From: Streptomyces tateyamensis
GTDB taxonomy: Bacteria; Actinomycetota; Actinomycetes; Streptomycetales; Streptomycetaceae
Assembly (NCBI RefSeq): GCF_003205575.1
Contig: NZ_PYBW01000047.1
Location: 1 to 64,000 of the forward strand
Direction: 5' to 3'
DNA length: 64,000 nt
Part shown: positions 1-39,884 of the stretch, one piece after another
How the letters are laid out: every line of letters begins with the position of its first letter
Position numbering within the stretch: position 1 is the stretch's first letter
The notes under the pieces: model-generated
Told to the model about the DNA's origin: nothing
Database searches by the model: none
Seen by the model: only the letters and a program-made list of their open reading frames with translations
Made by a program: the position numbers and the translations under genes

Positions 1-1563
1 CCGGGGCAGCGCCGCGACCACGGCCGCGTGCGCCTCGACCGGAGTCAGCGCCGAACCCGGCGGCAGCTCCATGGTCGCGGTCAACTCGCCGTTGGCGAAG
101 CTGACTTCGGCCGCCAGATCGAGAGCCGAGCGGACCAGTGCGGCCACCGCCTCGAGTTCCACCCAGCTGCCGGCCACCAGGCGCCAGCCCGGGCGGTCGC
201 GCCGGGCCCGGGGCAGGCCGGTCAGCTGCGGCAACTCGGCCAGCAGGAAGTCGCGTTCGCCCGCGACCTCGATCAGGTGCAGCAGCGCCCGAGCCAGTTG
301 CTCGCCCTGCTCGCGCGGGAACAGCTGCGGGTCCAGGCGCAGGCTGAGCGCGACCTCGCCGCGCAGCCGCCAGACGTCCAGCATGATCCGGGTCGCCGCG
401 CTCTCGGGCGGCAGCCAGACGAACTCCGGGTCCGCCGTGGGCGCCTGGTAGCGGGCCACTGCCTCGTCCGGCACCGTGGAGCTGAGGTCGTTGAGCACCA
501 TGTGCCGCACGTAGCGCGCCCCGCGCTCGTGGGCCACCCGGTCGATCAGCCCCCACAGCTGCTGCGCGTCGAAGGTGGCGTGCCAGTACCCGGCCAGCGC
601 CGCTGCCTGGGCGTGCCGCAGCAGGGCGTCGAAGCCGGCCGCCGGGTCGTCGAGCGGCACCCGCACCGAGAGCAGCGCGTCCTGGGCCAGCGTGCCGACG
701 TGGCCGGCCAGCACCGCCCGGTTCCGGTTGGCCGACAGGGTCGCCACCACCAGTGTCCGCTGGTCCGCCAGGTGGGCGACCAGCGCGGCGTAGGCGGCCA
801 GCAGCAGGGTGGACGGGCTGGCGCCCGTGCGCCGCACCGCCCGCTCCAGCGCCTGGCCGGCGGTGGCGGAGCGGACCAGCAGGGCGGGCAGCAGGCCGTC
901 CGAGGGCTCGACCCGGTCGTCGGCGAAGACCGTGACCGGGTCCTCGCGCAGGATCCGCTCCCAGCGCCGCAGCGCACCACGCGCCCGGCGCTGTCCGGCG
1001 GTGCTCCGCTCCTGCGCCGCCAGCTCGCGCGGGCTGGGCGAGTCCGACTCCGGCAGCGGCCGGCCGGCCGCCAGCAGCAGCCAGTCGCGGAACAGCAGCG
1101 CCGTTGCGGAGCCGTCCAGTTGGGCGTGCGAGACGACCACCACCAGCCGCACCGGGCGGTCGCCCGAGGTGAGCAGGGTGAGCCGCAGCGGGAAGTCCGT
1201 GGCCGGCTCGAAGGCCTGTGCCCGCCCCTTGCGGCCGAGCTCCTCGCCCAGCCGGTCGGGGTCGTCGCCGTCCGGCACCGGCACCACCGCGACGGTGAAC
1301 TCGCCCTCGGCGAGCTCGACCTGCTCGGTGAAGTGGTCACCGGGGAAGACCGTGCGCAGCGCCGGGTGCCGCTCGGCGAGCGCCCGCAGCGCGTCCAGCG
1401 CGGCCGCCACCGTGGTGCCCGGCGGCACCGGCCAGACGGCCTGCTTGTTGATGGCCTCGGGCGCGTCGTTCAGCATGCACCGGATCATGTTGTCCTGACC
1501 CAGCGTCAGCGGACCGCTGCCCCCGGGGCCGTCGCTGCGGTACCGGACGAGGTGCGGGGTCAC
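1..1563 (-). CDS. Free-standing NRPS condensation-domain protein (partial, C-terminus off window)
   Basis: The frame is open from a GTG at 1563 to the left edge, giving 521 visible codons. The GTG overlaps the stop of the upstream ligase gene (GTGA). Around residues 146-151 it reads SHAQLDG, which fits the HxxxDG catalytic motif of condensation domains and related CoA-dependent acyltransferases. The N-terminal segment with LTLGQDN near residue 20 resembles the entry strand of C domains. No adenylation or carrier domain is fused to it in the visible part. It probably forms an amide or ester bond between acyl groups held on the discrete carriers of this cluster. It is the last visible gene of the minus-strand operon. 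The C-domain superfamily call is good, but donor and acceptor are unknown. Confidence 0.8.
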   Translation of the reverse strand, partial: MTPHLVRYRSDGPGGSGPLTLGQDNMIRCMLNDAPEAINKQAVWPVPPGTTVAAALDALRALAERHPALRTVFPGDHFTEQVELAEGEFTVAVVPVPDGDDPDRLGEELGRKGRAQAFEPATDFPLRLTLLTSGDRPVRLVVVVSHAQLDGSATALLFRDWLLLAAGRPLPESDSPSPRELAAQERSTAGQRRARGALRRWERILREDPVTVFADDRVEPSDGLLPALLVRSATAGQALERAVRRTGASPSTLLLAAYAALVAHLADQRTLVVATLSANRNRAVLAGHVGTLAQDALLSVRVPLDDPAAGFDALLRHAQAAALAGYWHATFDAQQLWGLIDRVAHERGARYVRHMVLNDLSSTVPDEAVARYQAPTADPEFVWLPPESAATRIMLDVWRLRGEVALSLRLDPQLFPREQGEQLARALLHLIEVAGERDFLLAELPQLTGLPRARRDRPGWRLVAGSWVELEAVAALVRSALDLAAEVSFANGELTATMELPPGSALTPVEAHAAVVAALPR

Positions 1564-2441
1564 CGGGGCCGGCCCCCGGTGATCGCGTCCCGGACCGCGG
1601 CCGGCCACTGCCGCGGGTCGGGCCCGTGCGCGTGCAGCAGCGCCAGCGCGATCCGCTCCAGCCCGAAGGCCGCGCACGCGGTCTGCCCGGTGGCCCCGGC
1701 CGCGGTGAAGCCGAACGCCTCCCCGAAGTGGTCCTTGTGCACGTTGGCCGAGGCCACCGCCTGCACCAGCCCGTCCTCCAGTTCCACCCGCAGTTCGTAC
1801 TTGAGCTGCTGGCGGCGCTGGGCGGCCTGGTAGAGCTTGGCGCCGGCGCCGAAGAACGGGTCGTCGGCCACCTCCACCGCGGGCTTGAGCGAGCAGCCGG
1901 TCAGCCAGTCGGCCATCCGGTCCAGCCAGCGCTCCCGCCAGTCCAGGCAGTGCTCCTCGGTGCCGGCGGTGACCAGCTCGGCCATCCGGAAGCTGCGCAG
2001 CCGCCCGGTCTCGGTGGTCCGCTCCTGCCGGAAGCAGCCGGCCTCCACCGCGTAGCGCACCGGCTCGGCCAACTCGCGCCCGGCGAGCGAGGCGTAGACC
2101 GGATAGCAGGCGGCGGGCAGCAGTACCAGGTCGGTGATCTCCTGCCGCTGGTGCCAGGGGCCGCCCTCGCCGGCGAGCGGGGCGAGCGCGGCCCACTCCT
2201 TGGGCGTGCCCGCGTAGCTGTGCACGGTGCCGAGCAGCTGGGGGAAGGAGGCGATGTAGCCGGCCTGCTCCAGGGTGCGGCGGGCGATCACCGGCGGCAC
2301 CGCGAGGCGGCCGAAGGGCTCGTCCGCGGCGAGCGCCGCGATGCCGGTGCGCAGGTCGGCCACCAGGCGCTCGAAGGACTCGGGGTAGCAGTAGACACCG
2401 GGCGCCCCCGTGGGCACCGGGCGGGCGTCGGCTTCGTTCAT
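1560..2441 (-). CDS. Seryl-tRNA synthetase-like amino acid:[carrier protein] ligase
   Basis: This 293-residue protein is a class II aaRS catalytic core without a tRNA-binding arm. Motif 2 reads CFRQERTTETGRLRSFRMAE (136-155) and motif 3 reads AAFGLERIALAL (257-268). Cys136 and Cys256 sit where zinc ligands lie in the atypical SerRS/Bll0957 family, whose members activate small amino acids and load them on a carrier protein instead of tRNA. The ATG at 2441 follows a GGTGG ribosome site and overlaps the stop of the PPTase gene (ATGA). The partner is most likely one of the three carrier proteins here. The family call is strong; the amino acid used is not visible. Confidence 0.85.
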   Translation of the reverse strand: MNEADARPVPTGAPGVYCYPESFERLVADLRTGIAALAADEPFGRLAVPPVIARRTLEQAGYIASFPQLLGTVHSYAGTPKEWAALAPLAGEGGPWHQRQEITDLVLLPAACYPVYASLAGRELAEPVRYAVEAGCFRQERTTETGRLRSFRMAELVTAGTEEHCLDWRERWLDRMADWLTGCSLKPAVEVADDPFFGAGAKLYQAAQRRQQLKYELRVELEDGLVQAVASANVHKDHFGEAFGFTAAGATGQTACAAFGLERIALALLHAHGPDPRQWPAAVRDAITGGRPR

Positions 2442-3121
2442 GGTTCCACCAGGGGTGAGGAGTTGACGGTCGGGTCCGGGCACCAGACCCGCTGGTGCAC
2501 GGTGAACGGCGCGGCGCCGAGCAGGGCGACGGCGGCCCGGTGGCCGGGCGGTCCGGTGAGGTCGAGGACCTGGCAGGGGCCGCCCGCGGTCTCGGTGAGC
2601 AGCCGCGGCGGGCCCAGCAGGGGGTGGCGCAGCCCGTCGGCCAGCCGGCCGCCGAGCGCCTTGACCACGGCCTCCTTGCGGGTCCACTGCCGGGTGAACC
2701 GCTCGGCGGCACGGTGGCCGGCCACCCAGGCCGCCTCGTCGGCGGGGAAGTAGCGCTCGGCCAGCCGCAGCGCGGTCGGCTCGGCGGGCACCGGTTCCAG
2801 GTCCACCCCCACGGCCCGCTGCTCCACGGTGGCGAACAGGGCGAAGCCGCCTGCGGTGGACAGGCTGACGCCCACCGGGCCGGGCAGCTCCGGTTTGCCG
2901 TGCGGACCGCGCTGCCAGCGCAGCGCGGCGGGCGGCCGCCCGCAGCGAACGCCGGCCAGCAGCCGGGCCGCGCCGTGGGCCACCACGAACCGCCGGCGGC
3001 GGCGCGGGTCCGCCGTGCGGCGGGCCCGGTCGCGCTCCTGCGGGTCGAGCAGTGCGGCCAACTCGGCGCAGATATCAGGTGGTTGGTCGGTGGGGATGAG
3101 CCAGAGCTCGACCTCGGTCAC
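2438..3121 (-). CDS. Sfp-type 4'-phosphopantetheinyl transferase
   Basis: The 227-residue protein has the Sfp-family core: HGKPEL (74-79), GVDLE with the metal-binding acidic pair (105-109) and WTRKEAVVK (146-154). It would convert apo carrier proteins of the cluster to the holo form using CoA. The segment normally written NLSHS is LSTAG here, so the usual CoA-contacting histidine is replaced by threonine. I chose GTG 3121 because it overlaps the stop of the upstream gene (GTGA), continuing the translationally coupled chain. A cluster-borne PPTase suits a pathway that depends on free-standing carriers. Confidence 0.9.
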   Translation of the reverse strand: MTEVELWLIPTDQPPDICAELAALLDPQERDRARRTADPRRRRRFVVAHGAARLLAGVRCGRPPAALRWQRGPHGKPELPGPVGVSLSTAGGFALFATVEQRAVGVDLEPVPAEPTALRLAERYFPADEAAWVAGHRAAERFTRQWTRKEAVVKALGGRLADGLRHPLLGPPRLLTETAGGPCQVLDLTGPPGHRAAVALLGAAPFTVHQRVWCPDPTVNSSPLVEP

Positions 3122-3981
3122 TCGGCGGCCTCCAGCACGAACGGTCGTACGGTTTCCGCCGCAGGCTGCCACCGCGCCAGGCAGAGCAAGCCGTCGGCGT
3201 ACTCCGCCAGCAGGACCGGCCGCCGCCCCGGGTGGTGGTCGGCCAGGGCGGACCAGAGTCCGGTGAAGGGCCGGCCCGGATCGGTCCGCACCGGGTCGCT
3301 GCCCGCGGGCGCGGCCGCTCGGGCCAGCCCCGGCCCCAGCAGCAGTGCCTCGCCGGGTCGCCAGGCCCTGGCCAGCAGCTCGGGTACCTGCGCGAGGCCC
3401 ACCCCGACCTGGTCGGTCACGGCCAGGTCAGGGTCCGAGCCGGTCGCCTCGCAGAGCAGCCCGACCGCCCGGTGCCCGTCGGGCCACGGTGCCGGACGGG
3501 CCAACGGGTAGTAGGACTGCGCCTGTTCGGCGACCAGCACCAGTGCGCGCCGCACCGCCCCGTCGCGCGCGTAGGCCTGGGCGATGCGCAGCGCGGTGAA
3601 GACGCCGGCCGCACCCTGGTCGCAGAGCGCGAAGCCCAGCGGGCGGCCCGGGCAGACCTCACCCAGGTGCACCGCGGCGGCCCGCCCGGGCTGCACGTCG
3701 GGTGAGGCGAAGGCCAGCACCAGCAGGTCGACCGGCTCTTTGGGCCCGACCAGCTCGCGCACCAGCGCCTCGCCCAGCTCCGCGTAGGCGTGCCCGCGCC
3801 CGGTCCGCAACGCCTCCCGGTCCGGCTCCAGCCCGTAGGGGCGGACCAGGTCGGAGAGGAAGACCCGCAGGTCCGGATGGTGCGCGGCGGCGCTGTGCCC
3901 GCCGAACTCCCGGGCGAGCACCCGGCGCAGGCCCAGTGCCGGGCCCGGCTCGGCGGCTGCCGGGGGATCGGCGAGGAACAT
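3118..3981 (-). CDS. Ketosynthase/thiolase-fold protein lacking the active-site Cys
   Basis: This 287-residue protein has a thiolase-fold pattern: a GFALCDQGAAGVFTALRIAQ segment near residue 116 aligns with the KAS III nucleophile loop, where CAG is expected and AAG is found, so the nucleophile appears to be alanine. The nearby Cys120 is four positions early. It starts 4 bp after the carrier-protein gene and overlaps the PPTase start. Possible roles are a chain-length-factor-like partner, a decarboxylase (KSQ-like) or a non-elongating acyltransferase. The fold call is moderate and the function unknown. Confidence 0.55.
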   Translation of the reverse strand: MFLADPPAAAEPGPALGLRRVLAREFGGHSAAAHHPDLRVFLSDLVRPYGLEPDREALRTGRGHAYAELGEALVRELVGPKEPVDLLVLAFASPDVQPGRAAAVHLGEVCPGRPLGFALCDQGAAGVFTALRIAQAYARDGAVRRALVLVAEQAQSYYPLARPAPWPDGHRAVGLLCEATGSDPDLAVTDQVGVGLAQVPELLARAWRPGEALLLGPGLARAAAPAGSDPVRTDPGRPFTGLWSALADHHPGRRPVLLAEYADGLLCLARWQPAAETVRPFVLEAAE

Positions 3982-3985
3982 CGGC

Positions 3986-4324
3986 TCAGTCCTCGCCGAT
4001 GGTGTGCCCGGCGACGAAGTCGGCCAGCGAGCCGACCGAGCGCAGGTCGTCCTCGCCGATCTCCTCCACGTCGATCTGCAGCTCCAGGCTGTCCTCCAGT
4101 TCCAGGATCAGCTCCAGCGTGCTGGCCGAGGTGAGCCCGAGATCGTCGAAGAGGCAGGCGTTCTCGGCCACTTCGGCCAGCTCCCGCTTGAGCACCCGGG
4201 GCAGCAGCTCGCCGATGCCGGTGAGCACCCGGGCCCGCAGCTCGGGGTCCGGCGCCGCGGCGTGGCCGGCCGCGGCCTCGGCAGCGGGGTCGGATGCGGA
4301 GAGGTCGATCGCAGAGTCCGTCAC
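3986..4324 (-). CDS. Acyl/peptidyl carrier protein
   Basis: The 112-residue protein is acidic. After a 25-residue Ala/Asp-rich leader it has a carrier-protein fold with the motif DDLGLTSASTLELILELE. Ser66 is the expected phosphopantetheine attachment site. The GTG start at 4324 has AGGGACGG upstream. It lies between the KAS III gene and the Cys-less ketosynthase-like gene, so it is a likely partner for both and for the SerRS-like ligase downstream in the same operon. Confidence 0.85.
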   Translation of the reverse strand: MTDSAIDLSASDPAAEAAAGHAAAPDPELRARVLTGIGELLPRVLKRELAEVAENACLFDDLGLTSASTLELILELEDSLELQIDVEEIGEDDLRSVGSLADFVAGHTIGED

Positions 4325-4432
4325 GGTCCGTCCCTGGAAGGAAGATTGACGAGTGAAGAAAGCGCAGCGGGCCGCAGGGGCCCGAGGCCGGAAGAAGGGT
4401 GGGCCGCTCAGTGGTGAAATGCTGAGGGTCGC

Positions 4433-5365
4433 TCAGTGTTCGAGCACCATGGCCGAGAAGGTCGCGCCGAGGCCGGCCGCCGCGATCAGGTACCGGTCGC
4501 CCGACCGGAGGAGACCACGAGCGGTGGCAGTGCGGTGGTTGATGAACGCGTCCGCAGCGAAACTGTGCCCCACCTCGGGCACATTGTCCAGCACCACCCG
4601 CTCCACCGGGAAGCCGACCAGGCGGCAGAGCCGTTGCCAGGACACCCGGTTGACGTTGTGCGGGAGCACCAGGGCGAGCGCGTCCCAGCCGAGGCCGGCC
4701 CGCGCCAGGGCGGCCGTCATCACCTCGGCCATCGCCTCCGGGTAGGCCTTCTGGTAGCGGACCAGCAGCTCGGGATCCTCGGCCAGGCGCCCGTCGAACT
4801 CGCCCAGCTGCCGACTGGCGTAGCAGAGCACCCGGTCGGGGCCGTCCCCGGAGGCGACCAGGCAGGCGGCCGCGCCCTCGCCGAAGAAGGAGGTCTCCGG
4901 CACCAGCTGGGCGTCCCGGGTGAAGGTCTTCTCGCCGGCCAGCACCAGCGCGAGCGCCTCCGGGTCACCGTCGGCGGTCAGCAACCGGCCCGCCAGGTCG
5001 ACGGCCAGCAGCGAGGCGGCGCAGGCGTGGTGGGTGACGGTGAAGGAGCGGGCCCGGTGCAGGCCGAAGCGGTCCAGCAGGCCGGGCAGCGGATCGAGCG
5101 GGTAGGGCACGCCGACCGGCATGCTGCGGGCGTACAGCACGTACCGGACCAGGTGCTCGCGGCCGGGCAGCTCGGTGAGCGCCGACAGGGCGCCGGCCAG
5201 CAGGGTCTCCAGGTCGCCCGAGGGATCGAGCCGGACCCGGTCCAGGCCGTGGAAACGACGCAACAACGTAATCTGACGGCTCGTCAGACCGAGCTTGGCA
5301 CCGAGCTGTTCGACCGACACGGAGGAAGGGGGGAGATGGACGGCGACTGCCGCCAGTGCGGTCAC
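4433..5365 (-). CDS. KAS III-like beta-ketoacyl-ACP synthase
   Basis: The 310-residue protein has the nucleophile loop HHACAASLLAVDLA with Cys115, a PHNVN segment for the catalytic histidine, and EVGHSFAADAF where KAS III normally has GNTSAAS, so the usual Asn is His. That variant occurs in KAS III-like enzymes that do more than fatty-acid initiation. It may prime a chain on the adjacent carrier or perform a single condensation. I prefer the GTG at 5365 over the ATG at 5401 because the protein then begins directly with the first beta-strand. It heads the minus-strand operon, divergent from the glycosyltransferase. Confidence 0.8.
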   Translation of the reverse strand: MTALAAVAVHLPPSSVSVEQLGAKLGLTSRQITLLRRFHGLDRVRLDPSGDLETLLAGALSALTELPGREHLVRYVLYARSMPVGVPYPLDPLPGLLDRFGLHRARSFTVTHHACAASLLAVDLAGRLLTADGDPEALALVLAGEKTFTRDAQLVPETSFFGEGAAACLVASGDGPDRVLCYASRQLGEFDGRLAEDPELLVRYQKAYPEAMAEVMTAALARAGLGWDALALVLPHNVNRVSWQRLCRLVGFPVERVVLDNVPEVGHSFAADAFINHRTATARGLLRSGDRYLIAAAGLGATFSAMVLEH

Positions 5366-5439
5366 CCGGGCTACTATGCCCGCGCCCCGCGGACCGCACA
5401 AGCCGCCGCCGGTCCCACCAGCCGCTCGGAGGCCCCCAG

Positions 5440-6588
5440 ATGACCACTTCCGCCCTGCGCTGCCTGCTGGTCGTTCCGCCGCTGGCCGGCCACGTGCTGC
5501 CCGCGCTCGCCCTGGCCGACGAACTGCGGGCGCGCGGCCACCAGGTGGCCTGGGCCGGCTCCGGTGCGGGACTGCGGGCGCTGCTCGGCGAGCAGGAACC
5601 GGTGCTCTCCACCGGCAGCCGGTTGTTCCGCCCGCAGGGCGGCAGCGGCGAGGCGGCGATCCGCTCGCTCTGGGAGGGCTTCGTGGTGCCGTATGCCCGG
5701 TTCACCAGGAAGGCGCTGACCGGGATCGTCGAGCAGTGGCGCCCGGACGTGCTGCTGGTCGATCAGCACACGCCGGCCGGCGCACTGGTGGCGCGGCGCG
5801 CGGGGCTGCCCTGGGTGACTCTGGCGCCCTCGGCGCTCGAGCTGGTGGAGCGCCTGACGCCGCGGCAGGCCCAGTGGCGGGACGAGCTGTTGCGCGCACT
5901 GTGGGCCGGGGCCGGGCTGCCCGCCGAGGAGTACGCCGATCCGCGGTTCTCGCCCGCCCTGGTGCTGGCCTTCACCGGGCGGGCGCTGCTGGGCGAGGTG
6001 GCGCTGCCCGGTCAGGTCGCGCTGGTCGGGCCGTTGCTGGGCCGTCGTCCGGTGGCCGAGCCCTTCCCGTGGGAGCGGCTGGACCCGGACCGCACCCCGG
6101 TGCTGGTCAGCCTGGGCACGCTGGCAGCCGACGTGGCCGGGGACTTCCACCAGCGGGTGGCCCGGGCGCTGGCCCCGCTCGCCGACCGGGTGCAGGGCAT
6201 CGTGGCCGGTGCCCCGGGCGAACTGCCCGGCCACGTGCTGGCGGTGGACCGGGTGCCGACGCTGGAGCTGCTGCGCCGCGCCGAGTTTGGCGCGGTGCTG
6301 TGCCACGGCGGGATGAACACCACCTGCGAGGCGCTGGCCCACGGGGTCCCGGTGGTGGCCGCGCCGATCCGGCACGACCAGCCGGTGACCGCGGTCCAGC
6401 TGGTGGCCGCGGGCGCGGGCCGACAGGTGGACTTCGCCACCGCGAGCCCGGCCGAACTGCGCGCCGCACTGACGGCCGTACTCGAACAGCCCGGCTACCG
6501 GACGGCCGCCGCCGCCCTGGCAGCGGACTTCCGGGCGGCCGGCGGGGCGCCTGCGGCCGCCCGCCGGATCGAGGAAGTGGCAGCCTGA
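5440..6588 (+). CDS. GT1-family (MGT/UGT-type) glycosyltransferase
   Basis: This 382-residue GT-B enzyme begins with LLVVPPLAGHVLPALALADE, whose His is in the place of the GT1 catalytic base. Its C-terminal donor-binding motif reads CHGGMNTTCEALAHGVP, followed by APIRHDQP. Such enzymes transfer a sugar from a nucleotide sugar to a small-molecule acceptor. A clear CGGAGG site lies 7 bases before the ATG. It is divergent from the KAS III operon and probably glycosylates the cluster product. No deoxysugar genes are visible, so an ordinary UDP- or dTDP-sugar may be used. Confidence 0.88.
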   Translation: MTTSALRCLLVVPPLAGHVLPALALADELRARGHQVAWAGSGAGLRALLGEQEPVLSTGSRLFRPQGGSGEAAIRSLWEGFVVPYARFTRKALTGIVEQWRPDVLLVDQHTPAGALVARRAGLPWVTLAPSALELVERLTPRQAQWRDELLRALWAGAGLPAEEYADPRFSPALVLAFTGRALLGEVALPGQVALVGPLLGRRPVAEPFPWERLDPDRTPVLVSLGTLAADVAGDFHQRVARALAPLADRVQGIVAGAPGELPGHVLAVDRVPTLELLRRAEFGAVLCHGGMNTTCEALAHGVPVVAAPIRHDQPVTAVQLVAAGAGRQVDFATASPAELRAALTAVLEQPGYRTAAAALAADFRAAGGAPAAARRIEEVAA

Positions 6589-6601
6589 CCACTGGACTTC
6601 A

Positions 6602-6641
6602 TGGTCCAGACCATTGTTTTCCAGGGTCCGCGCACCATAGG
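6602..6641 (+). promoter_or_regulatory. Promoter with a DasR/GntR-like operator ahead of the exporter genes
   Basis: TGGTCCAGACCA (6602-6613), inside the inverted repeat ATGGTC-CA-GACCAT, differs by one central base from the DasR site core TGGTCTAGACCA. It directly abuts a possible -35 TTGTTT (6614-6619), with a weak -10 CATAGG 16 bases on (6636-6641). The position suggests control of the ABC exporter. This is inferred from sequence similarity only. Confidence 0.5.
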
Positions 6642-6732
6642 GTGACCGGCGACCCCGGGGATCTCGCCAGGCGCTGCCCATGTCGCCGCGCCCCGGGTGC
6701 TTCGCCGATCCCACCGACCCCGGGAGTCTCGG

Positions 6733-7677
6733 TTGATCGTCACCAAGGGACTGCGGAAGAGCTTCCGGTCCCGTCGCTCCGCCCCCGTCGACGCGGTTCG
6801 GGGCCTGGATCTCACTGTCGAACCCGGTGAGATCTTCGGCCTGCTCGGACCGAACGGCGCGGGCAAGACCACCACCATGCGGATGCTCGCCACACTGGTC
6901 CGCCCCGACGACGGCGAGGTCACCCTGGCCGGCGCCGACCTGCGCACCGAGCCGCACGAGGTGCGGCGCCGGATCGGCTACGTCGCCCAGGGCGGCGGCA
7001 CCACCGACGGCGCCAGTGCCCGCGAGGAACTGGTGCTGCAGGCCAGGTTCTACGGGATCGGCAAGGCCGAGGCCGGCCGGCGGGCCGAGCAGGCGCTGGC
7101 CGCCTTCGAGCTCACCGAGTTCGCGGACCGCCCGTGCGCCGGCTACTCCGGCGGCCAGCGCCGCCGGGTCGACCTCGCCCTCGGCGTGATCCACCGGCCC
7201 CGCCTGCTGATCCTGGACGAGCCCACGGTCGGCCTGGACCCGCAGAGCCGGGCCCAGGTCTGGGCCGAGGTGCGCCGGCTGCGCGAGGAGGGCATGACCG
7301 TCCTGCTGACCACCCACTACCTGGACGAGGCCGACGCGCTCTGCGACCGGATCGCCATCGTGGACCACGGCGAACTGGTCGCCGAGGGCGCCCCGGAGCA
7401 GCTCAAACGGGAGATCTCCGGCGACGTGGTGACCCTGGAGCTGGCCGCGGCGGACGCCGAGGCCGCCGAGAAGGTGCTCACCGGGCTGGACTGCGTGCAC
7501 CGCATCGAGCCGCGCGAGGGCGACGAGCTGCGGCTGTACGTCACCGACGGCGCGAGCGCCATCCCGCAACTGCTGCACGCGCTGGCCGAGGCCGGGCTGC
7601 GGCCCGAGCAGACCCGGCTGCAGCGGCCCAGCCTGGACGACGTCTTCCTGGCCAGGACCGGACGGACCATCTCCTGA
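6733..7677 (+). CDS. ABC exporter ATP-binding protein (DrrA-type)
   Basis: The 314-residue ATPase has Walker A GPNGAGKTTT, signature YSGGQRR, Walker B LLILDEPT and the DrrA-like C-terminal extension ending in SLDDVFL. I chose TTG 6733 because GGGAG lies six bases upstream; a GTG at 6697 would add 12 residues without a ribosome site. It pairs with the permease 33 bp downstream, forming a two-component exporter of the daunorubicin-resistance type. In this cluster it should export the product or provide self-resistance. Confidence 0.93.
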   Translation: MIVTKGLRKSFRSRRSAPVDAVRGLDLTVEPGEIFGLLGPNGAGKTTTMRMLATLVRPDDGEVTLAGADLRTEPHEVRRRIGYVAQGGGTTDGASAREELVLQARFYGIGKAEAGRRAEQALAAFELTEFADRPCAGYSGGQRRRVDLALGVIHRPRLLILDEPTVGLDPQSRAQVWAEVRRLREEGMTVLLTTHYLDEADALCDRIAIVDHGELVAEGAPEQLKREISGDVVTLELAAADAEAAEKVLTGLDCVHRIEPREGDELRLYVTDGASAIPQLLHALAEAGLRPEQTRLQRPSLDDVFLARTGRTIS

Positions 7678-7710
7678 CCCCAGGTCAGGAAGCACTGAGC
7701 GGAGCACGCG

Positions 7711-8469
7711 TTGAAACTGGCCCGGGACACCTGGCTGATCTTCCAGCGGCAGCTGCTGCTGATGTGGCGCACCCCGATCTGGCTCATCGTCGGAGTCGTC
7801 CAACCCCTGTTCTACCTGCTGCTGTTCGCCCCGCTGCTGCGCCCGGTGCTGGCGCCGGGCGGCAGCTACGCGCAGGCCTACCGGATCTACGTGCCGGGCC
7901 TGCTGACCGCACTGGTCATCATGGGCGGCCTGTTCACGGGCTTCTCGCTGCTGGGCGAGCTGCGTGCGGGCATCATCGAGCGGACCCGGGTCACTCCGGT
8001 CAGCCGCACCGCGCTGCTGCTCGGCCGGGCGATGCGGGAGGTGGTGGCGCTGCTGGTGCAGGCGGTGATCATCACCCTGGTGGCGCTGCCGTTCGGGCTC
8101 ACGGTGCCGTTCGGGCTGCTGCTGCTGGCCTACCTGCTGCTCGGGCTGCTGGCGCTGATGGCCTCCTCGGTCTCCTTCGGGCTGGCTCTGATGGTGCGCA
8201 GCGACGCGGCGCTGGCCCCGGTGCTGAACACCATCGCGCAGCCGATCGCGCTGCTCTCCGGGGTGCTGCTGCCGCTCTCGCTGGCCCCCGGCTGGCTGCG
8301 GGCGGTGGCCGACTGGAACCCGTTCTACTGGGCCGTGGAGGGCATCCGGGCACTGTTCGCCGGCCACCTGGGTGACGCCTCGGTCTGGCGCAGCCTGGTG
8401 CTGGTCTCGGCGCTCACGGTGGTCGCGGTGCTCTGGTCGGCGCGGCTGTTCACCGACCGGGTGCGCTGA
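7711..8469 (+). CDS. ABC-2 type exporter permease (DrrB-type)
   Basis: The 252-residue membrane protein has about six hydrophobic segments, starting near residue 25 (LIVGVVQPLFYLLLFAPLL), and the ABC-2 signature region around LGELRAGIIERTRVTPVSR. The TTG start follows GCGGAG. It is the transmembrane partner of the preceding ATPase. A strong hairpin 21 bases after the stop ends the two-gene unit. Confidence 0.92.
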   Translation: MKLARDTWLIFQRQLLLMWRTPIWLIVGVVQPLFYLLLFAPLLRPVLAPGGSYAQAYRIYVPGLLTALVIMGGLFTGFSLLGELRAGIIERTRVTPVSRTALLLGRAMREVVALLVQAVIITLVALPFGLTVPFGLLLLAYLLLGLLALMASSVSFGLALMVRSDAALAPVLNTIAQPIALLSGVLLPLSLAPGWLRAVADWNPFYWAVEGIRALFAGHLGDASVWRSLVLVSALTVVAVLWSARLFTDRVR

Positions 8470-10460: not shown

Positions 10461-10525
10461 CGGGGCCACGGGGAAAGCACTACGAGAAGTCAACCATTAC
10501 CGACTCTGTCTGCCATGGAGTGGCG

Positions 10526-11914
10526 TTGACTGGTTATCCCGCTCCAACAGCACGATTCTCCCCAACGGCCCGACTTTCCGAAGGCGTGGCGGGTTGGGTC
10601 GACCACTACCTGCTTTCCGGCGACCCGGCCGAACCCTGCCTGCACCTCGGCGAGCCGGTGAACCGGCACCATCTGCGGCGCCTGGTCGACGACCGCCGAC
10701 AACAGTTGGCGGCGGTCGGACTGACCGCCGGCGGAACGGTGGCCTTACGGCTGCCGCCCTCGCTGGACTACGTCACCACACTGCTCGCGGCGTGGCGGCT
10801 CGGCGCCCAGGTGGCGCTGCTCGACCACCGGCTGACCCTCGCCGAGACCGAACGGGCACTGCACCGGCTGCGGCCGCAGTACCTGATCGGCCCGGAGTCC
10901 GTCGAACCACTGACGGACGGTCAACCGGCTACCAGTGCGCACGTACTGGTCCAGCTCAGCTCCGGTTCCACCGGTCCGTCCAAGGTGATCGCCCGCACCT
11001 CGGCCGACCTGGTCCGCGAGCTGGACTGCTACCGGCAACTGGCGCACTACCCGGGGCGCGGCGAACGGATCGTGCTGCTCGCCTCGATGGTCCACGTGCT
11101 CGGTCTGGTGGGCGGGTTGCTGCACAGCCTGCGCTCCGGCCTCGAACTCGTGGTGCCGCAGCGGCTCACCCCGCCGGGCATCCTGGCGGCGGTGCGGGCC
11201 GCGGAGGTCCCCACCACCCTGCTCGGCGTGCCGTTCTACGCCGAACTGCTGGCCCGGATGGCGCAGCCGCCGCCCACTCCCCAGCTGGTCCGGATGATCG
11301 TGGCCGGCGAGCTGGTCCGGCCCAGCGTGCCCGCAGCCTTCGCGGCCCGCTACGGCGTACCGCTGGGCACCATGTACGGGATGACGGAGATCGGCGTCAT
11401 CGCCACCGACCTGACCGGCGAGCTGTACCCGTCGGTGCGGCCGGTGGCCGGGATGCGGGCCGAACTGATCGACGGTGAACTCCACCTGGCCCAACCGGAG
11501 TCGCCGTACCTCGGCCTGACCGACCCGGGACGCTGGTCGGACGGCCTGCTGCACACCAGGGACGCGGCCGACCTCGACCGGACGACCGGCCTGATCACCG
11601 TGCGCGGCCGGCAGGACTCGCAGGTCTCGATCGGCGGGCTCAAGGTCGACCTCACCGAGGTCGAGCAGACCCTGGCCGCGCTGCCCGGCGTGCGCGAGGC
11701 CGTGGTGGCCTTCGCCGACGGCGCGATCGAGGCCTACGCGGCGGCCGACACCACCGCCGAGCTGCTGCGCGCCGAGCTGGCCGGGCAACTGGCCGGCTAC
11801 AAGCTGCCGCGCCGGCTCACCCTGCTGCCGGCCCTGCCGCGCACGGCCACCGGCAAGGTGCTGCGGGACGCGCAGGCGCTGCGCGCCGCGGCCGCCGCGG
11901 TCCACCCAAGTTGA
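10526..11914 (+). CDS. AMP-forming acyl/aryl-CoA or carrier-protein ligase (TTA codon)
   Basis: This ANL-superfamily protein is about 462 residues. It has the P-loop LSSGSTGPSKV, the A5-type YGMTEIG, the hinge GRQDSQVSIGGLKVDL and the C-terminal lysine in LPRTATGKVLR. It activates a carboxylic acid as the adenylate and passes it to CoA or, more likely here, to the carrier encoded immediately downstream. TTG 10526 has GGAG five bases upstream; a GTG at 10451 would lie inside the promoter. The gene has a TTA leucine codon at 10745-10747, so translation should depend on the bldA tRNA. Confidence 0.85.
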   Translation: MTGYPAPTARFSPTARLSEGVAGWVDHYLLSGDPAEPCLHLGEPVNRHHLRRLVDDRRQQLAAVGLTAGGTVALRLPPSLDYVTTLLAAWRLGAQVALLDHRLTLAETERALHRLRPQYLIGPESVEPLTDGQPATSAHVLVQLSSGSTGPSKVIARTSADLVRELDCYRQLAHYPGRGERIVLLASMVHVLGLVGGLLHSLRSGLELVVPQRLTPPGILAAVRAAEVPTTLLGVPFYAELLARMAQPPPTPQLVRMIVAGELVRPSVPAAFAARYGVPLGTMYGMTEIGVIATDLTGELYPSVRPVAGMRAELIDGELHLAQPESPYLGLTDPGRWSDGLLHTRDAADLDRTTGLITVRGRQDSQVSIGGLKVDLTEVEQTLAALPGVREAVVAFADGAIEAYAAADTTAELLRAELAGQLAGYKLPRRLTLLPALPRTATGKVLRDAQALRAAAAAVHPS

Positions 11915-11937: not shown

Positions 11938-12207
11938 ATGCAGGACCAGATCCGTGGCTTCGTGCTGGCCGCACTGACCGCGATGAACTACGACGTCTCC
12001 GAGGCGACCGGCCAGACCGACCTCGGCCCGGCCGGACTGGACCTGGAGTCGCTGGCCCTGGCCGACCTCGCGGTGCAGGTCGAGGAGGAGTTCGGGGTGC
12101 GCTTCGACCTGGACGACATGGAGAGCACCGCCCTGATGACCATCGACGAGTTCACTGCCGAGGTGGCCCGCCGGGTCGAGGCGGCGCCGGTGGGCGGCCC
12201 CGCGTGA
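11938..12207 (+). CDS. Acyl carrier protein
   Basis: The 89-residue carrier has Ser38 in GLDLESLALADLAVQVEEEF as the expected phosphopantetheine site. An AGGAG-type ribosome site precedes ATG 11938. It follows the ligase by 23 bp and overlaps the second carrier gene (GTGA). Direct loading by the preceding ligase is the simplest reading. Confidence 0.88.
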   Translation: MQDQIRGFVLAALTAMNYDVSEATGQTDLGPAGLDLESLALADLAVQVEEEFGVRFDLDDMESTALMTIDEFTAEVARRVEAAPVGGPA

Positions 12208-12593
12208 CGGTCACCCGGGAGGCGGTGCTGGAGATGCTGGCCGCCTTCGGCGAGCGGGCACCGCAGCAGGTCGACGAGGAGATCGGCTCGCTCGAACTGA
12301 CCTGGCTGCTGTCCGAGGCCGAGCAGCGCTACGGCGTCGAGCTGGACCCGGAGAGCCCGGAGCTGGCCACCGTGCACACGGTGGGGCAGGCCGTCGCGGC
12401 GCTGCAGACGCTGGTGCCGCCTCAGGCGGCCCTCGCCCCGTCGCGGCCCCCGGCATCCGCTCCCGCCGCACCGTCCGACAGCCCGAGCAGCTCCAGTACC
12501 AGGGCCCTGGGGGTACCTCCCGGCCGCAGGCCGGGGGAGCCGCTCCTCGACGGGCAGAGGCTGCCTGACGCGGCACCGGTTGCCGACGTATGA
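12204..12593 (+). CDS. Second carrier protein with an abnormal Pro/Ser-rich tail
   Basis: The first about 75 residues form a carrier fold with IGSLELTWLLSEAEQRYG, in which the Ser of GSLE should carry phosphopantetheine. The next about 55 residues are a low-complexity Pro/Ala/Ser tail that includes a translated palindrome (12517-12539). Despite this tail the stop still overlaps the next ATG (ATGA at 12590-12593), so coupling to the ketosynthase gene is kept. GTG 12204 overlaps the previous stop. Confidence 0.78.
   Translation: MTVTREAVLEMLAAFGERAPQQVDEEIGSLELTWLLSEAEQRYGVELDPESPELATVHTVGQAVAALQTLVPPQAALAPSRPPASAPAAPSDSPSSSSTRALGVPPGRRPGEPLLDGQRLPDAAPVADV
12510..12539. repeat. REP-like palindrome inside a coding sequence
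   Basis: The stretch after GGGGGTACC contains CTCCCGGCC-gca-GGCCGGGGGAG (12517-12539), an imperfect hairpin that resembles the short mobile palindromes scattered through streptomycete genomes. It is translated as part of the carrier-protein tail. Confidence 0.5.
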
Positions 12594-13588
12594 CTGCGGT
12601 ACCGGTGCTGGTGACCGGGTTGGCGGTACGGTCGGGGACCTTCGCCCCGGTGACCCGGTTCGACGTGTCGAACCGTCAGGCCGTGGTGGCCGCCACCCAA
12701 CCGGGGGACCCGGACCTGGCGGGGCAGTTGGCCGAGGTGCTCACCGAGGTCGGCGTCCAGGGCTCGCCCGTGCTGCTCGCACTGCACGGGGACGAGCGGG
12801 CGCGGCCGATCACGGCCGGGCTCGCCGCCCGGTTCGGCGTCGACCCGCGGGTCTACACCGGCGCCTGCGTCGCCGCCTCGACCGCCGTCGCGGACGCCGC
12901 CGCGCTGATCGCGGCCGGCCGGGCCGAGCGCCTGGTGGTGGCGGCCGGCTACCTGGTGGAGCCGGACACCTTCGCGGTCTTCGACGCGGGGCGGGCGCTG
13001 TCCCGCAGCGGCGTGCTGCGTCCGTTCAGCCGGGGGCGGGACGGACTGCTGCTCGGCGACGCCGTGGTCGCCCTCGCGTTGGAGGCCGGGCCGGCCGCCG
13101 GGCGGTCCGCACTGGCCCGGATCACCGGCTGGGGCCGGGCCGGGGACGGCTACCACGTCTGCCGGCCCGATCCGAGCGGGGCGGGGCTGGCCCGGGCGAT
13201 CCGGGCCGCGCTGGACCGGGCGGGCGTGGGCGCGGCGCAGGTGGGCTGGCTGAACGCCAACGGGACGGGTTCGCCGATCGGCGACGCGGCCGAGGCGGCG
13301 GCGCTGGCCCTGGCCTTCGGCGAGCAGCTCGCCGAACTGCCGGTCAGCTCCACCAAGAGCCTGCACGGACACGCCCTCGAGGCTTCCGCGCTGCTCGAAC
13401 TCGCAGTGACCATAGATGTGTTGGCAGAAGGGAAGGTGCCGGTGAACGCCGGGTGGCTGGGGCCGGACGAGCAGTGCCGGCTGAACGTGGTGGTCGACGC
13501 ACCGCGTACCCTGGCCGCGCCCCACCTGCTCACCGTCAACTCCGCGTTCGGCGGCGCCAACACCGCGCTGCTGGTCGGTGCGCCGTGA
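12590..13588 (+). CDS. Beta-ketoacyl synthase with one catalytic His replaced by Asn
   Basis: The protein has 332 residues against about 410 for usual KAS I/II, and the N-terminal part is shortened. The nucleophile is kept in TGACVAAS (Cys93), Lys256 in STKS and His261 in HGHALEAS. The first histidine, normally NAHGTGT, is NANGTGS, giving Asn224. A C-N-H triad could favour a different partial reaction, such as acyl transfer or condensation without decarboxylation; this is inference. It is coupled by overlapping codons to the carrier upstream and the ketosynthase-like protein downstream. Confidence 0.8.
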   Translation: MTAVPVLVTGLAVRSGTFAPVTRFDVSNRQAVVAATQPGDPDLAGQLAEVLTEVGVQGSPVLLALHGDERARPITAGLAARFGVDPRVYTGACVAASTAVADAAALIAAGRAERLVVAAGYLVEPDTFAVFDAGRALSRSGVLRPFSRGRDGLLLGDAVVALALEAGPAAGRSALARITGWGRAGDGYHVCRPDPSGAGLARAIRAALDRAGVGAAQVGWLNANGTGSPIGDAAEAAALALAFGEQLAELPVSSTKSLHGHALEASALLELAVTIDVLAEGKVPVNAGWLGPDEQCRLNVVVDAPRTLAAPHLLTVNSAFGGANTALLVGAP

Positions 13589-14076
13589 TGGTCGAGCTGG
13601 CCCGGGCGGCCTGGCCGGAGCCCGGGGACACCGAACTGCCGCGGCTGGCCGGGTTCACCGTGTCCAGTTTCAACCCGCTGGTGGCCGAGACCGCCGACCG
13701 CTGCCTGACCCGGTGGCACGGCGCGGCCCCGCTCGGCGCCGTCGGGCGGACCGCCCTGGTGCTGGTGAGCAGCAGCGGCGACGTGGGCACCGCGCGCGCC
13801 ATCGCCGGTGCGGTCGCGGACGGGCGCCGGGTGCCGCCGCTGCTCTTCTTCCAGTCCAACCCGAACGCCGTGCTCGGCCACCTGGCGGCCCGCTGGCTGC
13901 TGACCGGCCCCGTGTTGGCGCTCGGCAGCGGCGGCGAGCCGGTCGGGCTGGCCGAGGCCGAGCTGTTGCTCAGCGGCGGCGAGGCCGACCTGGTGCTGCT
14001 GGTCGCCGCCGAACAGGCCACCGCCGACGGGGAGTCGGACCACGCCACCGCGGTGCTGCTGGCGCCCGCCCACTGA
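13588..14076 (+). CDS. Small ketosynthase-like protein without nucleophile
   Basis: The 162-residue protein resembles the N-terminal half of a ketosynthase. RTALVLVSSSGDVGTARAI and FFQSNPNAVLGHLAARWLL match the segments leading to the active site, but the expected ACSS loop is replaced by GSGGEPVG. The C-terminal histidine half is absent. It follows the C-N-H ketosynthase directly (TGATG), so a heterodimer, with this protein as a truncated chain-length-factor-like subunit, is plausible. The assignment rests on motif resemblance only. Confidence 0.55.
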   Translation: MVELARAAWPEPGDTELPRLAGFTVSSFNPLVAETADRCLTRWHGAAPLGAVGRTALVLVSSSGDVGTARAIAGAVADGRRVPPLLFFQSNPNAVLGHLAARWLLTGPVLALGSGGEPVGLAEAELLLSGGEADLVLLVAAEQATADGESDHATAVLLAPAH

Positions 14077-14105: not shown

Positions 14106-15716
14106 ATGAGCAACCGCAGTCTCCGCGCCGTGCTGGCCGCGGACGAGCAGCTCGGCGCCGGCAACGTCCTGACCACCCGGATGCGGCTGGACCTGGACGT
14201 CGACGCGCCGGCGCTGGCCTTCGACACGCCCGTCGACCAGTACCCGGCCCGCCTGTCACTGACGGTACGTCAACTTGACGAACTGGTAAGGGGTCGGGCC
14301 GCGGCGCTGGCCGAGCTCGGGATCCGCCCGCGGGACCCGGTGGTGGTGTTCGCCACCGCCGCCGCCGACCAGGTGCTCGGCTTCCTGGCGCTGGCCCGGC
14401 TCGGCGCGATCCCGGCGCTGCTCAACCCGCTGCTCGACGCCGAGCGGGCGGCCCGCTACATCGCCCGGCTCGGCGCGGTCGGAGTGCTGGCCGACGCCGA
14501 GCACCGGGTGGCGCTGGCCGACGCCGAGCTGGCCGGCACCCCGCTGCTGCCGGAGCTCGACGGCGACCCCGACCAGGCGCCCGAGCCCTACCCGCACTGG
14601 TCCGGCGACCCGGTGGCGATCACCCACTCCTCCGGCACCACCGGCCTGCCCAAAGCCGTGCTGCACTCGCACGAGAGCCTGTTCGCCGCGATCCGGCACC
14701 GCTACTCGCTGCCCCGCGCGCAGGGCGCCGACCGGGTGCTCAGCGCACTGCCGGCCGCGCACGCCGCCACCTTGATCGCGGTCAACCTGGCGCTCGGCTC
14801 CGGCGCCGAGCTGCTGCTGCTCTCCCAGCCGAGCGGCGCCCAGGTGCTGGACGAGATCGAAAGCTGGCGACCGCACGGCGTCTTCGGCTTCGCCGCCACC
14901 TGGGCGGCGCTCGCCCGGTTCGACCTGGCGCGGCGCCGGTTGGACTCGGTCTCGCTGTGGTGGAACACCGGCGACTGCGCGCACGAGGCGCACATCCGCC
15001 GCCTGGTCGCGGTCGGCAGCCGGGAGCAGGCCACCCGGGCCGGGCGCACCCGGCTGCCCGGCTCGGTCTTCGTCGACGGCCTGGGCTCCACCGAGATGGG
15101 CCACTCGCACTTCTTCCTCACCCACACCCCCGAGTCCCAGCGGTACGGCCGCTGCGTCGGCAAGCCGCACACCTTCGTCGACTGCCAGGTGGTCGGCCCG
15201 GACGGCACCGAGCTGGGCCCCGGCGAGGTGGGCGAGCTGATCACCAAGTCGCCGACGCTGGCGCTGGGTTACTGGAACGACTCGGTGACCACCCAGCGCA
15301 CCCGGCTGCGCGGCTACTTCCGCACCGGCGACCTGGTGCACCGGGACGAGGAGGGCTACTACTACCACGTCGACCGGCTGGTGGACGCGGTCGAACTGCC
15401 CGGCGGCGCCCGGTTGTACACCGCGCTGTCGGAGGAGCGGGTGCTGGCCGCCTGCCCCGAGGTGGCGGACTGCACCGTGGTGGCCCGGCGGGTGGACGAG
15501 CAGGTGGTCACCGACATCCTGCTGCAGCTGGCCGCCGGAGCCGACCCGGCGGTGGACCGCACCGCCGAGGTGGTCGCCGCGCTGGAGCCGGCGGTGGCCC
15601 GCACCGTCCGCCAGGTCAGCGTGGTGGCCGACGCGGCGATCCCGCTGGGGCCCACCGGCAAGGTCCGCAAGGTGCTGCTGCGCGAGCGGCAGCCGGCCGA
15701 GCTGGGCGCCCGGTGA
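14106..15716 (+). CDS. Second AMP-forming acyl/aryl ligase
   Basis: This 536-residue ANL enzyme has ITHSSGTTGLPKAVLHSHE (P-loop), VDGLGSTEMGHS, YFRTGDLVHRDEEGYYYHVD and the catalytic lysine in PLGPTGKVRK. It is distinct from the first ligase in length and in its acid-binding residues. Two ligases and three carriers suggest at least two activated acids in addition to the amino acid loaded by the SerRS-like enzyme. The ATG at 14106 lies 29 bases after the previous stop with a GAGAG site. Confidence 0.87.
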   Translation: MSNRSLRAVLAADEQLGAGNVLTTRMRLDLDVDAPALAFDTPVDQYPARLSLTVRQLDELVRGRAAALAELGIRPRDPVVVFATAAADQVLGFLALARLGAIPALLNPLLDAERAARYIARLGAVGVLADAEHRVALADAELAGTPLLPELDGDPDQAPEPYPHWSGDPVAITHSSGTTGLPKAVLHSHESLFAAIRHRYSLPRAQGADRVLSALPAAHAATLIAVNLALGSGAELLLLSQPSGAQVLDEIESWRPHGVFGFAATWAALARFDLARRRLDSVSLWWNTGDCAHEAHIRRLVAVGSREQATRAGRTRLPGSVFVDGLGSTEMGHSHFFLTHTPESQRYGRCVGKPHTFVDCQVVGPDGTELGPGEVGELITKSPTLALGYWNDSVTTQRTRLRGYFRTGDLVHRDEEGYYYHVDRLVDAVELPGGARLYTALSEERVLAACPEVADCTVVARRVDEQVVTDILLQLAAGADPAVDRTAEVVAALEPAVARTVRQVSVVADAAIPLGPTGKVRKVLLRERQPAELGAR

Positions 15717-23633: not shown

Positions 23634-23936
23634 ATGAGGCTCACCCCCCACGAGCAGGAACGCCTGCTGATCCACGTCGCCGCCGAGGTGGCCGCCGCTC
23701 GGCGGGCCCGCGGGCTGCGGCTCAACCACCCCGAGGCGGTCGCGGTGATCACCTCCCACCTGCTGGAGGGCGCCCGGGACGGGCGCAGCGTCGCCGAGCT
23801 GATGGAGTCCGGTGGCCGGGTGCTCTCCAGAGCCGACGTGATGGACGGGATCGCCGAGATGATCCCCGACGTGCAGGTCGAGGCGACCTTCCCGGACGGG
23901 ACCAAGCTGGTCACGGTTCACGGACCGATCCGGTGA
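23634..23936 (+). CDS. ureA: Urease gamma subunit
   Basis: The 100-residue protein shows the UreA signature: [40 protein letters not shown] and [20 protein letters not shown]. It is the small structural subunit of nickel urease, which hydrolyses urea to ammonia and carbamate. It heads an operon ureA-B-C-F-G-D in which all genes overlap. A separate gamma subunit is usual in actinomycetes. Confidence 0.97.
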
Positions 23937-24262
23937 CGGCCGAACAGGAAGTGATCCCGGGTCAGATCCTCTACGGCGAGGGCGCGGTCACGCTCAACGC
24001 GGGCCGCCCGGTGACCAGGCTGGTGGTCCGCAACGGCGCGGACCGCCCGGTGCAGGTCGGCTCGCACTACCACTTCGCCGAGGCCAACCCCGGGCTGGAG
24101 TTCGACCGCGAGGCCGCCCACGGGCTGCGGCTGGACGTGCCGGCCGGCACCGCGGTGCGGTTCGAGCCCGGGATCCCGATCGAGGTGGCACTGGTGCCGA
24201 TCGGCGGCCGGCGCGAGGTGCCCGGTCTGCGCGGCGCGGTCGGCGGGCGGCTCGATGGCTGA
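23933..24262 (+). CDS. ureB: Urease beta subunit
   Basis: The 109-residue protein contains [19 protein letters not shown] and [20 protein letters not shown], typical of UreB. GTG 23933 overlaps the ureA stop. With ureA and ureC it forms the urease apoenzyme trimer. Confidence 0.97.
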
Positions 24263-25964
24263 GCTCTCGCGCGAGCGGTACGCCGAGCTGTACGGGCCGA
24301 CCGCCGGCGACCTGATCCGGCTGGCCGACACCGCGCTGCTGATCGAGGTGGAGCGGGACGACTGCGCGGGCGGGGACGAGGTGGTGTTCGGCGGCGGGAA
24401 GGTGATCCGCGAGTCGATGGGCCAGGCCCGCACCGCCCGGGCCGAGGGCGCGCCGGACACCGTGATCACCGGCGCGGTGGTGCTGGACCACTGGGGCGTG
24501 GTCAAGGCCGACGTCGGGATCCGCGACGGCCGGATCACCGCGCTCGGCAAGGCCGGCAACCCGGACACCATGGACGGGGTGCACCCGGGCCTGGTGATCG
24601 GCCCGGAGACCGAGGTGATCTCCGGCAACGGCCGGATCCTGACGGCCGGCGCGATCGACGCCCACGTGCACTTCACCGCGCCGCAGCTGGCGGCCGAGGC
24701 GATCGGCTCCGGGATCACCACCATGATCGGCGGCGGCACCGGCCCGGCCGAGGGCACCAAGGCCACCACCGTCACCCCGGGCGGCTGGCACCTGACCCGG
24801 ATGTTCGCCGCGCTGGACGGGCTGCCGGTCAACATCGGGCTGACGGCCAAGGGCAGCACCGTCAATCCGGCCGCGCTCCACGCCCAGCTGCGGGCCGGCG
24901 CGCTCGGGTTCAAGATCCACGAGGACTGGGGCGCCACCCCGGCCGTGATCGACGCCTGCCTGCGGGTCTGCGAGGCCACCGGCGCGCAGCTCGCACTGCA
25001 CACCGACACGCTGAACGAGGCCGGCTTCGTGGCCGACACGCTCGCCGCCATCGCCGGGCGCGGGGTGCACGCGTACCACACCGAGGGCGCCGGCGGCGGC
25101 CACGCCCCGGACATCATCACCGTCGTCGGCGAGCTCAACATCCTGCCCAGCTCGACCAATCCGACCCGCCCGCACACCGTCAACACGCTCGACGAGCACC
25201 TCGACATGCTGATGGTCTGCCACCACCTGAACCCCTCGGTGCCCGAGGACCTGGCCTTCGCCGAGTCGCGGATCCGGCCCAGCACCATCGCCGCCGAGGA
25301 CATCCTGCACGACCTGGGCGCGATCTCGATCATCAGTTCCGACTCGCAGGCGATGGGCCGGATCGGTGAGGTCGTCTGCCGCACCTGGCAGACCGCGCAC
25401 TGCATGAAGCTGCGGCGCGGCTCGCTGCCCGGCGACGGCCGGGCGGACAACCAGCGGGCCCGCCGGTACGTGGCCAAGTACACCATCAACCCGGCGGTGG
25501 CCCACGGGATCGACCACGAGGTGGGGTCGGTGGAGCCGGGCAAGCTGGCCGACCTGGTGCTCTGGTCGCCGGCCTTCTTCGGCGTCAAACCCGACCTGGT
25601 GCTCAAGGGCGGCCAGATCGCCTGGGCCCAGCTGGGCGACGCCAACGCCTCCATCCCGACCCCGCAACCCGTGCTGCCGCGGCCGATGTTCGGCGCCTTC
25701 GGGCGGGCCCCGGCGGCCAACTCGGTCAACTTCACCTCGCAGCAGGCGCTGGCCGACGGCCTGCCGGAACGCCTGGGCCTGGGCAAGGCGTTCAGCGCGA
25801 TCCGGGACACCCGGGGCGTGACCAAGGACCAGATGGTCAACAACAGCGCCCGCCCAGACGTGCGGGTGGACCCGGACAGCTTCCGGGTGACCATCGACGG
25901 GGAGCTGGTGGTGCCCGCACCGGCCGCCGAACTCCCGCTCGCCCAACGTTACTTCCTCTTCTGA
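24255..25964 (+). CDS. ureC: Urease alpha (catalytic) subunit
   Basis: The 569-residue protein is full length. It has the nickel ligands in AIDAHVHFT, the carbamylated lysine region [15 protein letters not shown], and the mobile flap [20 protein letters not shown] with the catalytic histidine. It ends in RYFLF as most UreC do. It overlaps ureB by eight bases. Confidence 0.98.
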
Positions 25965-26608: not shown

Positions 26609-27259
<651 letters not shown>

Positions 27260-27269
<10 letters not shown>

Positions 27270-39864: not shown

Positions 39865-39884
39865 GCTGATCATCGTACGGCCGG

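Follow-up and report, generated by a model that had tools for sequence, protein, structure and literature searches.

The stretch analysed here, the first 64,000 nucleotides of contig NZ_PYBW01000047.1 of Streptomyces tateyamensis (hereafter 'the window'), carries near its left end a gene for a small relative of seryl-tRNA synthetase (SerRS), which overlaps a gene for a condensation (C) protein. We consider it reasonably probable that this SerRS-like ligase (1560..2441, minus strand) replaces in trans the adenylation (A) domain of a nonribosomal peptide synthetase (NRPS), loading a discrete carrier protein on behalf of the C protein. First, the ligase would use ATP to activate an amino acid in its class-II synthetase site, which would contain zinc. 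Second, the aminoacyl group would pass to a discrete carrier and be bound to its phosphopantetheine; the carrier is most likely the acyl carrier protein ACP1, made holo by the phosphopantetheinyl transferase (PPTase) of the same operon. Third, the separate C protein would turn the aminoacyl-carrier into an amide, probably with an acyl group supplied by the other half of the gene cluster, while two proteins resembling beta-ketoacyl-ACP synthase III (KSIII), KS3a and KS3b, may shuttle acyl groups between carriers. Family membership, catalytic residues, predicted fold, gene order, conservation and recurrence were computed here; we infer the three steps, the identity of the carrier and the formation of an amide rather than an ester.

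The ligase frame (293 amino acids plus stop, with an ATG start at 2441) matches the NCBIfam model NF005479, 'amino acid--[acyl-carrier-protein] ligase', at E 1.6e-84 across profile positions 33-316 of 318; its 283.6 bits do not reach the curated cut-off of 357 bits, and so it is placed in the wider ligase kind only and not in this equivalog (PRK07080). A PDB sequence search returned entries of Bll0957 at E 3.4e-57 and 9.3e-57, and the sole other match was a type-2 SerRS (E 1.6e-9), aligned over residues 104-287 only. The AlphaFold model (pLDDT 81) gives the same picture: Foldseek ranks 1-10 are all Bll0957 chains, placed before any SerRS (best E 1.1e-30), with TM-scores by query length of 0.76-0.85, the best six at 0.83-0.85. 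In class-II aminoacyl-tRNA synthetase cores the roles of the zinc-site Cys/Glu/Cys and of the arginines of motifs 2 and 3 are well established, and the residues tested for them here (C112, E155, C256, R138, E140 and R263), and also H235, are invariant in all 55 aligned ligases, Bll0957 included. C112, E155 and C256 fall in the columns of C131, E176 and C279 of Bll0957, which we take to be its zinc ligands. The assignment to SerRS-like carrier ligases that the original prediction made from the letters alone was thus borne out by family, fold and residues. Its expectation of small amino acid substrates was carried over from Bll0957 and is not supported, as the residues beside the zinc ligands differ: SAN stands in the window clade for SFN in Bll0957, and TAC in the window for TGC. 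The comparison with Bll0957 that it had proposed succeeds at the level of fold, but the pocket, compared from sequence, differs and yields no substrate prediction.

Its class-II core, akin to that of SerRS, would also suit a diverged seryl-tRNA synthetase that charges tRNA, either for a tRNA-dependent transferase, as VlmL does, or for self-resistance, which an extra SerRS copy can signal. We regard this as very improbable. An N-terminal tRNA-binding domain is absent from the ligase, whose chain is shorter than the SerRS chains matched by Foldseek, and 293 residues leave no room for one; its nearest kin are carrier ligases; three other serS genes (on C291, C424 and C101) score above the serS cut-off in the same genome; and a carrier gene accompanies the ligase in every close relative, as described below. 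On its sequence and predicted fold, the gene at 1560-2441 encodes an amino acid:carrier-protein ligase like Bll0957 and not a tRNA synthetase. Ratios of dN/dS were below 1 in all comparisons and were left out of the argument because dS is depressed by GC-rich third positions.

The ligase belongs to a minus-strand operon within window positions 1-5400, part of an antibiotic-type Kitasatospora gene cluster and comprising KS3a, ACP1, KS3b, PPTase, ligase and C protein in that order. The genes are tightly packed, with overlaps of 4 nt between KS3b and PPTase (3118-3121), PPTase and ligase (2438-2441), and ligase and C, and a spacing of 4 nt between ACP1 and KS3b. The PPTase (2438..3121) matches PF01648 at E 2.6e-14 and ACP1 (3986..4324) matches PF00550 at E 6.3e-8. 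KS3a (4433..5401, start probably near 5365) is recognised by PF08541 (E 4.9e-14) and by alignments, and KS3b (3118..3981) by alignments and weak matches to fabH (E 0.027) and PF08545 (E 0.035). With the active-site residues of FabH as reference, including its Asn, KS3a retains Cys and His and has a His at the position of the FabH Asn, and KS3b is missing the Cys at the active-site position; ACP1 is flanked by these two proteins, which resemble an active/inactive KSIII pair. No AMP-binding A domain was found by Pfam among the scanned operon genes, and a promoter and terminator scan gave nothing above chance. The 'two-protein' unit envisaged in the original prediction is too small, given that a carrier is required and that PPTase, ACP1 and the two KSIII-like proteins are encoded in the operon as well.

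The C protein (1..1563, minus strand, 521 amino acids visible) matches the Pfam Condensation family PF00668 at E 5.7e-19, with 68.6 bits where 30.6 is the cut-off. Read from the sequence, its frame opens with a GTG at 1563 that overlaps the ligase stop by 4 nt (GTGA); the gene caller chose an inner ATG at 1488, and the C genes of relatives mostly begin either with the same 4-nt overlap or 4 nt past the ligase stop. Because window base 1 is also contig base 1, the gene is open at the edge and has lost its 3' end, and whether the protein stands alone has to be taken from the reading frames of relatives. There the prediction of a stand-alone C protein is upheld, the gene being a complete frame of its own in 22 of the 23 close relatives (frames of ~547-690 amino acids) and broken between frames in the remaining one (L052). 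The model of one relative's C protein (L032) matches C domains with Z up to 28.5. In the window copy the equivalent of the HHxxxDG motif reads SHAQLDG. All 25 intact close copies retain the second His, Asp and Gly of HHxxxDG, and the protein is classed here as a C-domain fold with an altered motif, a putative condensation enzyme.

The pairing of ligase and C gene is strictly conserved among close relatives. A first scan of 199 related genomes found a ligase match in 62, the window's own genome included, and beyond the window these include 23 close orthologues with 64-79% identity, of which 21 belong to its genus, Kitasatospora. A contig scan with the single ligase sequence returned no relatives; a second scan with alignment A2, built from the window ligase together with all close orthologues but L007 (22 of 23), returned 27 loci. 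Eighteen of these are close (62-74% identity), ten repeating genomes of the first scan and eight being new, from Actinokineospora, Solihabitans and one short contig of a metagenome-assembled genome. In all 23 close orthologues the C gene adjoins the ligase on the same strand, and ACP1 lies no more than 2.3 kb from the ligase; three of these loci (L036, L039, L047) have tandem C genes after the ligase. In each of the eight loci of Actinokineospora/Solihabitans type, at least two C-like genes lie within ~3 kb of the ligase.

Eight regions were extended to 60 kb. Five keep the gene order of the window through the E1 beta gene of the plus-strand half of the cluster, with hydrolase and PPTase not found in one of the five (G113). 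The other three (G003, G053, G033) are without most of that half and retain ACP1, ligase and C; within 60 kb no copy of either AMP ligase was found in any of the three, and in G033 KS3b and PPTase were not found and KS3a is a short remnant. Across the eight regions ACP1 is present in 8/8, ACP2 in 6/8 and ACP3 in 5/8. ACP1 is most likely the partner of the ligase because it is the only cluster carrier present in all eight; a PDB search with ACP1 did not identify the partner, since the matches, in the best 60 of 103, were general carriers.

More distant ligases show that the association recurs in other actinobacterial clusters. The mid-distance set (n=18) comprised nine loci of the first scan and all nine loci of the second scan below 60% identity, the far set (n=20) was a selection of lower-ranked loci of the first scan, and C domains were sought around each ligase with a purpose-built C-domain profile. 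As this profile included the C proteins of L055 and L100, these two match by construction, and Pfam finds both independently. As a control, the ligase was placed randomly in the same loci in 5000 trials. In the mid-distance set a C domain lies within 3 kb of the ligase in 13 of 18 loci (random mean 7.0; reached in 0.08% of trials) and within 700 bp in eight (random mean 2.2; reached in 0.04% of trials), and in 11 of those 13 loci the frame bearing it measures 429-672 amino acids. Several of these loci are mutually related, so that there are fewer independent cases, by a rough estimate seven or eight. In L062 and L063 a C domain and a carrier are fused in one frame beside the ligase, identified by Pfam as Condensation and PP-binding, and Pfam found no AMP-binding domain in these C-carrier frames. 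The pairing with a separate C protein is thus supported by 23 of 23 close loci and by most mid-distance loci, up to these two fusions.

A second type of cluster is seen in L058, where the gene order is C, carrier, ligase, and to its side belong the fused C and carrier of L062 and L063. L058 also encodes SbnA and SbnB (2,3-diaminopropionate biosynthesis), both above their cut-offs, along with carbamoyltransferase-like, decarboxylase-like and ATP-grasp-like proteins. Relatives of the window genes KS3a, ACP1 and KS3b (KSIII, ACP and KSIII-like) lie 5-9 kb from ligase and C, on the other strand, in L058 and its kin.

Several observations weigh against the proposed role, in addition to the NF005479 score below cut-off given above. 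At the first His position of HHxxxDG the C protein has Ser or Cys, both in the window and in all 25 intact close copies; among 16 Actinokineospora-type C-like copies the motif His is present in 15 and so lost in one (the Asp is present in 16/16), and the motif Gly is Ala or Met in 16/16. The C domain belongs to a larger protein in L061 and L105 and lies on the opposite strand to the ligase in L056 and L061, and five of the 18 mid-distance loci have no C domain within 3 kb of the ligase. In the far set a C domain is found within 3 kb in only 4/20 loci (random mean 2.9) and within 700 bp in 3/20 (random mean 1.0; reached in 4.8% of trials), so that the link between ligase and C fades there and is mainly a trait of this branch of the family. 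In the second type of cluster the homologue of ACP1 sits with the ATP-grasp-like protein and the decarboxylase, and a different carrier adjoins the ligase, which leaves ACP1 uncertain as the partner. The cluster in the window contains two AMP-binding ligases (10490-11914 and 14106-15716), and so the bypass of adenylation that had been predicted is clearest only in the reduced clusters, where neither was found. Finally, genes for E1 alpha and beta lie between ligase and C in seven of the eight Actinokineospora/Solihabitans-type loci; the overlap of the two genes, on which the original prediction laid weight, is real in the window but not essential.

This last arrangement, in which the ligase is followed by the E1 genes and not by C, would also fit an account in which ligase and C share a pathway but not a carrier, the ligase loading ACP1 for KS3a and KS3b, and the C protein using an acyl group loaded by an AMP ligase. 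KS3a, ACP1 and KS3b are neighbours in the window, their relatives stay near ligase and C in L058 and its kin, and the KSIII homologue AzsD and its relative Tri13 are described in PMC10445470 as transferring acyl groups between carriers. Yet G033 retains ACP1, ligase and C with KS3b not found and KS3a a short remnant, and in L062 and L063 the carrier beside the ligase is joined directly to C; we therefore think this account unlikely. The stand-alone C enzymes VibH and SgcC5 act with free acceptors to give capped or ester products, and the C protein could likewise use a free acceptor such as a sugar amine or a hydroxyl group, so that the aminoacyl group would end up on a small molecule as an ester or capped product, instead of linking two groups held on carriers. 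Foldseek lists SgcC5 at rank 20 for the C model, a glycosyltransferase gene lies within the cluster, and for related ligases a cell-surface sugar was proposed as acceptor from gene neighbourhoods in 2010 (PMC2922099). The C-carrier fusions and the several carriers of the cluster suit transfer from carrier to carrier equally well, and we judge a small-molecule acceptor more doubtful than separate carriers. Loading of a discrete carrier for the C protein remains our favoured role for the ligase.

The C proteins of Kitasatospora type extend ~90 residues beyond the C domain, and this tail is probably a remnant of A_sub, the small C-terminal subdomain of the A domain, without the catalytic core (A_core). 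Its start, incomplete in the window, would occupy positions 1..198 on the minus strand, an A_sub-like segment without A_core as judged from the L032 model, structural alignment and profile comparison. The order of strands and helices in the L032 tail model corresponds to that of A_sub. With VIA-align, for which ranges denote the first and last aligned residues only, the L032 model aligned with the C-A structure 6p1j over 486 residues (the last being 994) and with SrfA-C (2vsq) over 489 (the last being 943), end points that we take to lie inside A_sub; C-only chains aligned over ~370-410 residues, and among the 50 matches listed nine chains reach model residue 530 or beyond. Four chains titled C-A (6ozv, 6p3i, 6p4u, 6oyf) aligned only as far as model residue 449-452, short of the tail, and Foldseek alone gave no placement for the tail. 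In a profile comparison against 22 profiles (C itself not counted), the two that bear A_sub, namely A_sub and AAL (the AMP-binding ligase at 10490-11914), ranked first at a probability of only ~7%, with AmL, also AMP-binding, at background level. A Pfam scan of ten relatives' tails found A_sub (PF13193) in none of the ten and no other clear family, with one chance-level match (E 0.11), and the lysine expected at the A10 position is not present in the aligned tails. A search of the window's own genome with a relative's tail returned the same locus at E 1.8e-17 and all others at E 0.06 or worse. More tentatively, and as a possibility rather than an expectation, the pairing could represent recurring actinobacterial NRPS modules that lack an A domain and use a SerRS-derived activator, built as ligase, carrier and C or as C-carrier fusions; the Kitasatospora tail would then be the scar of a lost A domain, as if a relative of the aminoacyl-tRNA synthetases had replaced it.

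The other half of the cluster lies on the plus strand. It begins with a macrolide-type glycosyltransferase and a putative ABC exporter, made up of a DrrA-type ATPase and a membrane protein read as its putative permease (5440..8469). AAL (10490..11914; PF00501 E 1.2e-30) is followed by ACP2 (11938-12207; PF00550 E 6.4e-5) and by ACP3 (12204-12593), for which there was no family match and which is called a carrier from its position and a GSLEL motif. The segment 12590..20940 encodes a ketosynthase (KS) pair like AmcF and AmcG, an AvaA6-like AMP ligase, a FabF-like KS, a 4HPPD-like protein, a PhyH oxygenase and E1 alpha and beta; hydrolase and methyltransferase genes are also present, and the cluster ends at ~20940. 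The adjoining KS-like genes at 12590-14076 have matches below cut-off to the cispentacin proteins AmcF (E 1.4e-36) and AmcG (E 7.1e-11) and possibly encode a KS heterodimer for a single extension. The AMP ligase at 14106-15716 comes nearest to a model for 3-aminoavenalumate diazotase (E 4.6e-131), scoring 438 bits where the cut-off is 975. Past the cluster there are a urease-type operon (23634-28111; gamma subunit by family match, the rest by gene call and by eye), a pyridoxal phosphate-dependent decarboxylase (38431-39873) whose best match, below cut-off, is a diaminobutyrate decarboxylase model, and an asparagine synthase above cut-off (47379-49235).

If the proposal is true, amino acid:carrier-protein ligases gain a biological role. 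The conserved and recurrent pairing of ligase and C, up to the fusion of C with a carrier, makes a peptide-type role testable with a few small proteins, and it would provide engineered assembly lines with a small, exchangeable module for loading amino acids, as well as giving a genome-mining marker for clusters left without a substrate by prediction based on A domains.

Both elements of the pairing are already known, carrier-loading relatives of SerRS on the one hand and free-standing C domains on the other. A 2022 review states that what the known ligases achieve by aminoacylating carriers is unknown (PMC9437257), and a link to nonribosomal synthesis is a suggestion repeated in a 2016 review (PMC4849084). 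No description of such a pairing of SerRS-like ligase and C domain was found in titles and abstract openings of the open literature, a scope that takes in little of the subscription literature and so is no proof that the pairing is unreported.

The closest known counterpart of the window ligase is Bll0957, the glycine:[carrier protein] ligase of Bradyrhizobium (PDB 3mey, 4h2s), with which it shares a class-II core over nearly its full length (36-40% identity by Foldseek), the zinc ligands, the ATP-binding residues and the absence of a tRNA-binding domain. Unlike Bll0957, it scores below the NF005479 cut-off, has other residues by the zinc ligands and is accompanied by a C protein in a biosynthetic cluster. 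With type II NRPS systems such as SgcC1/C2/C5 the window has in common a free-standing C protein and discrete carriers, but here the activator beside C is a SerRS-like ligase and not an AMP-binding A domain. With C-A didomain modules (6p1j, 2vsq) the C protein would share, on the tentative reading of its tail, an A_sub-like segment after the C domain; C proteins of the window type are without the A_core that would precede it.

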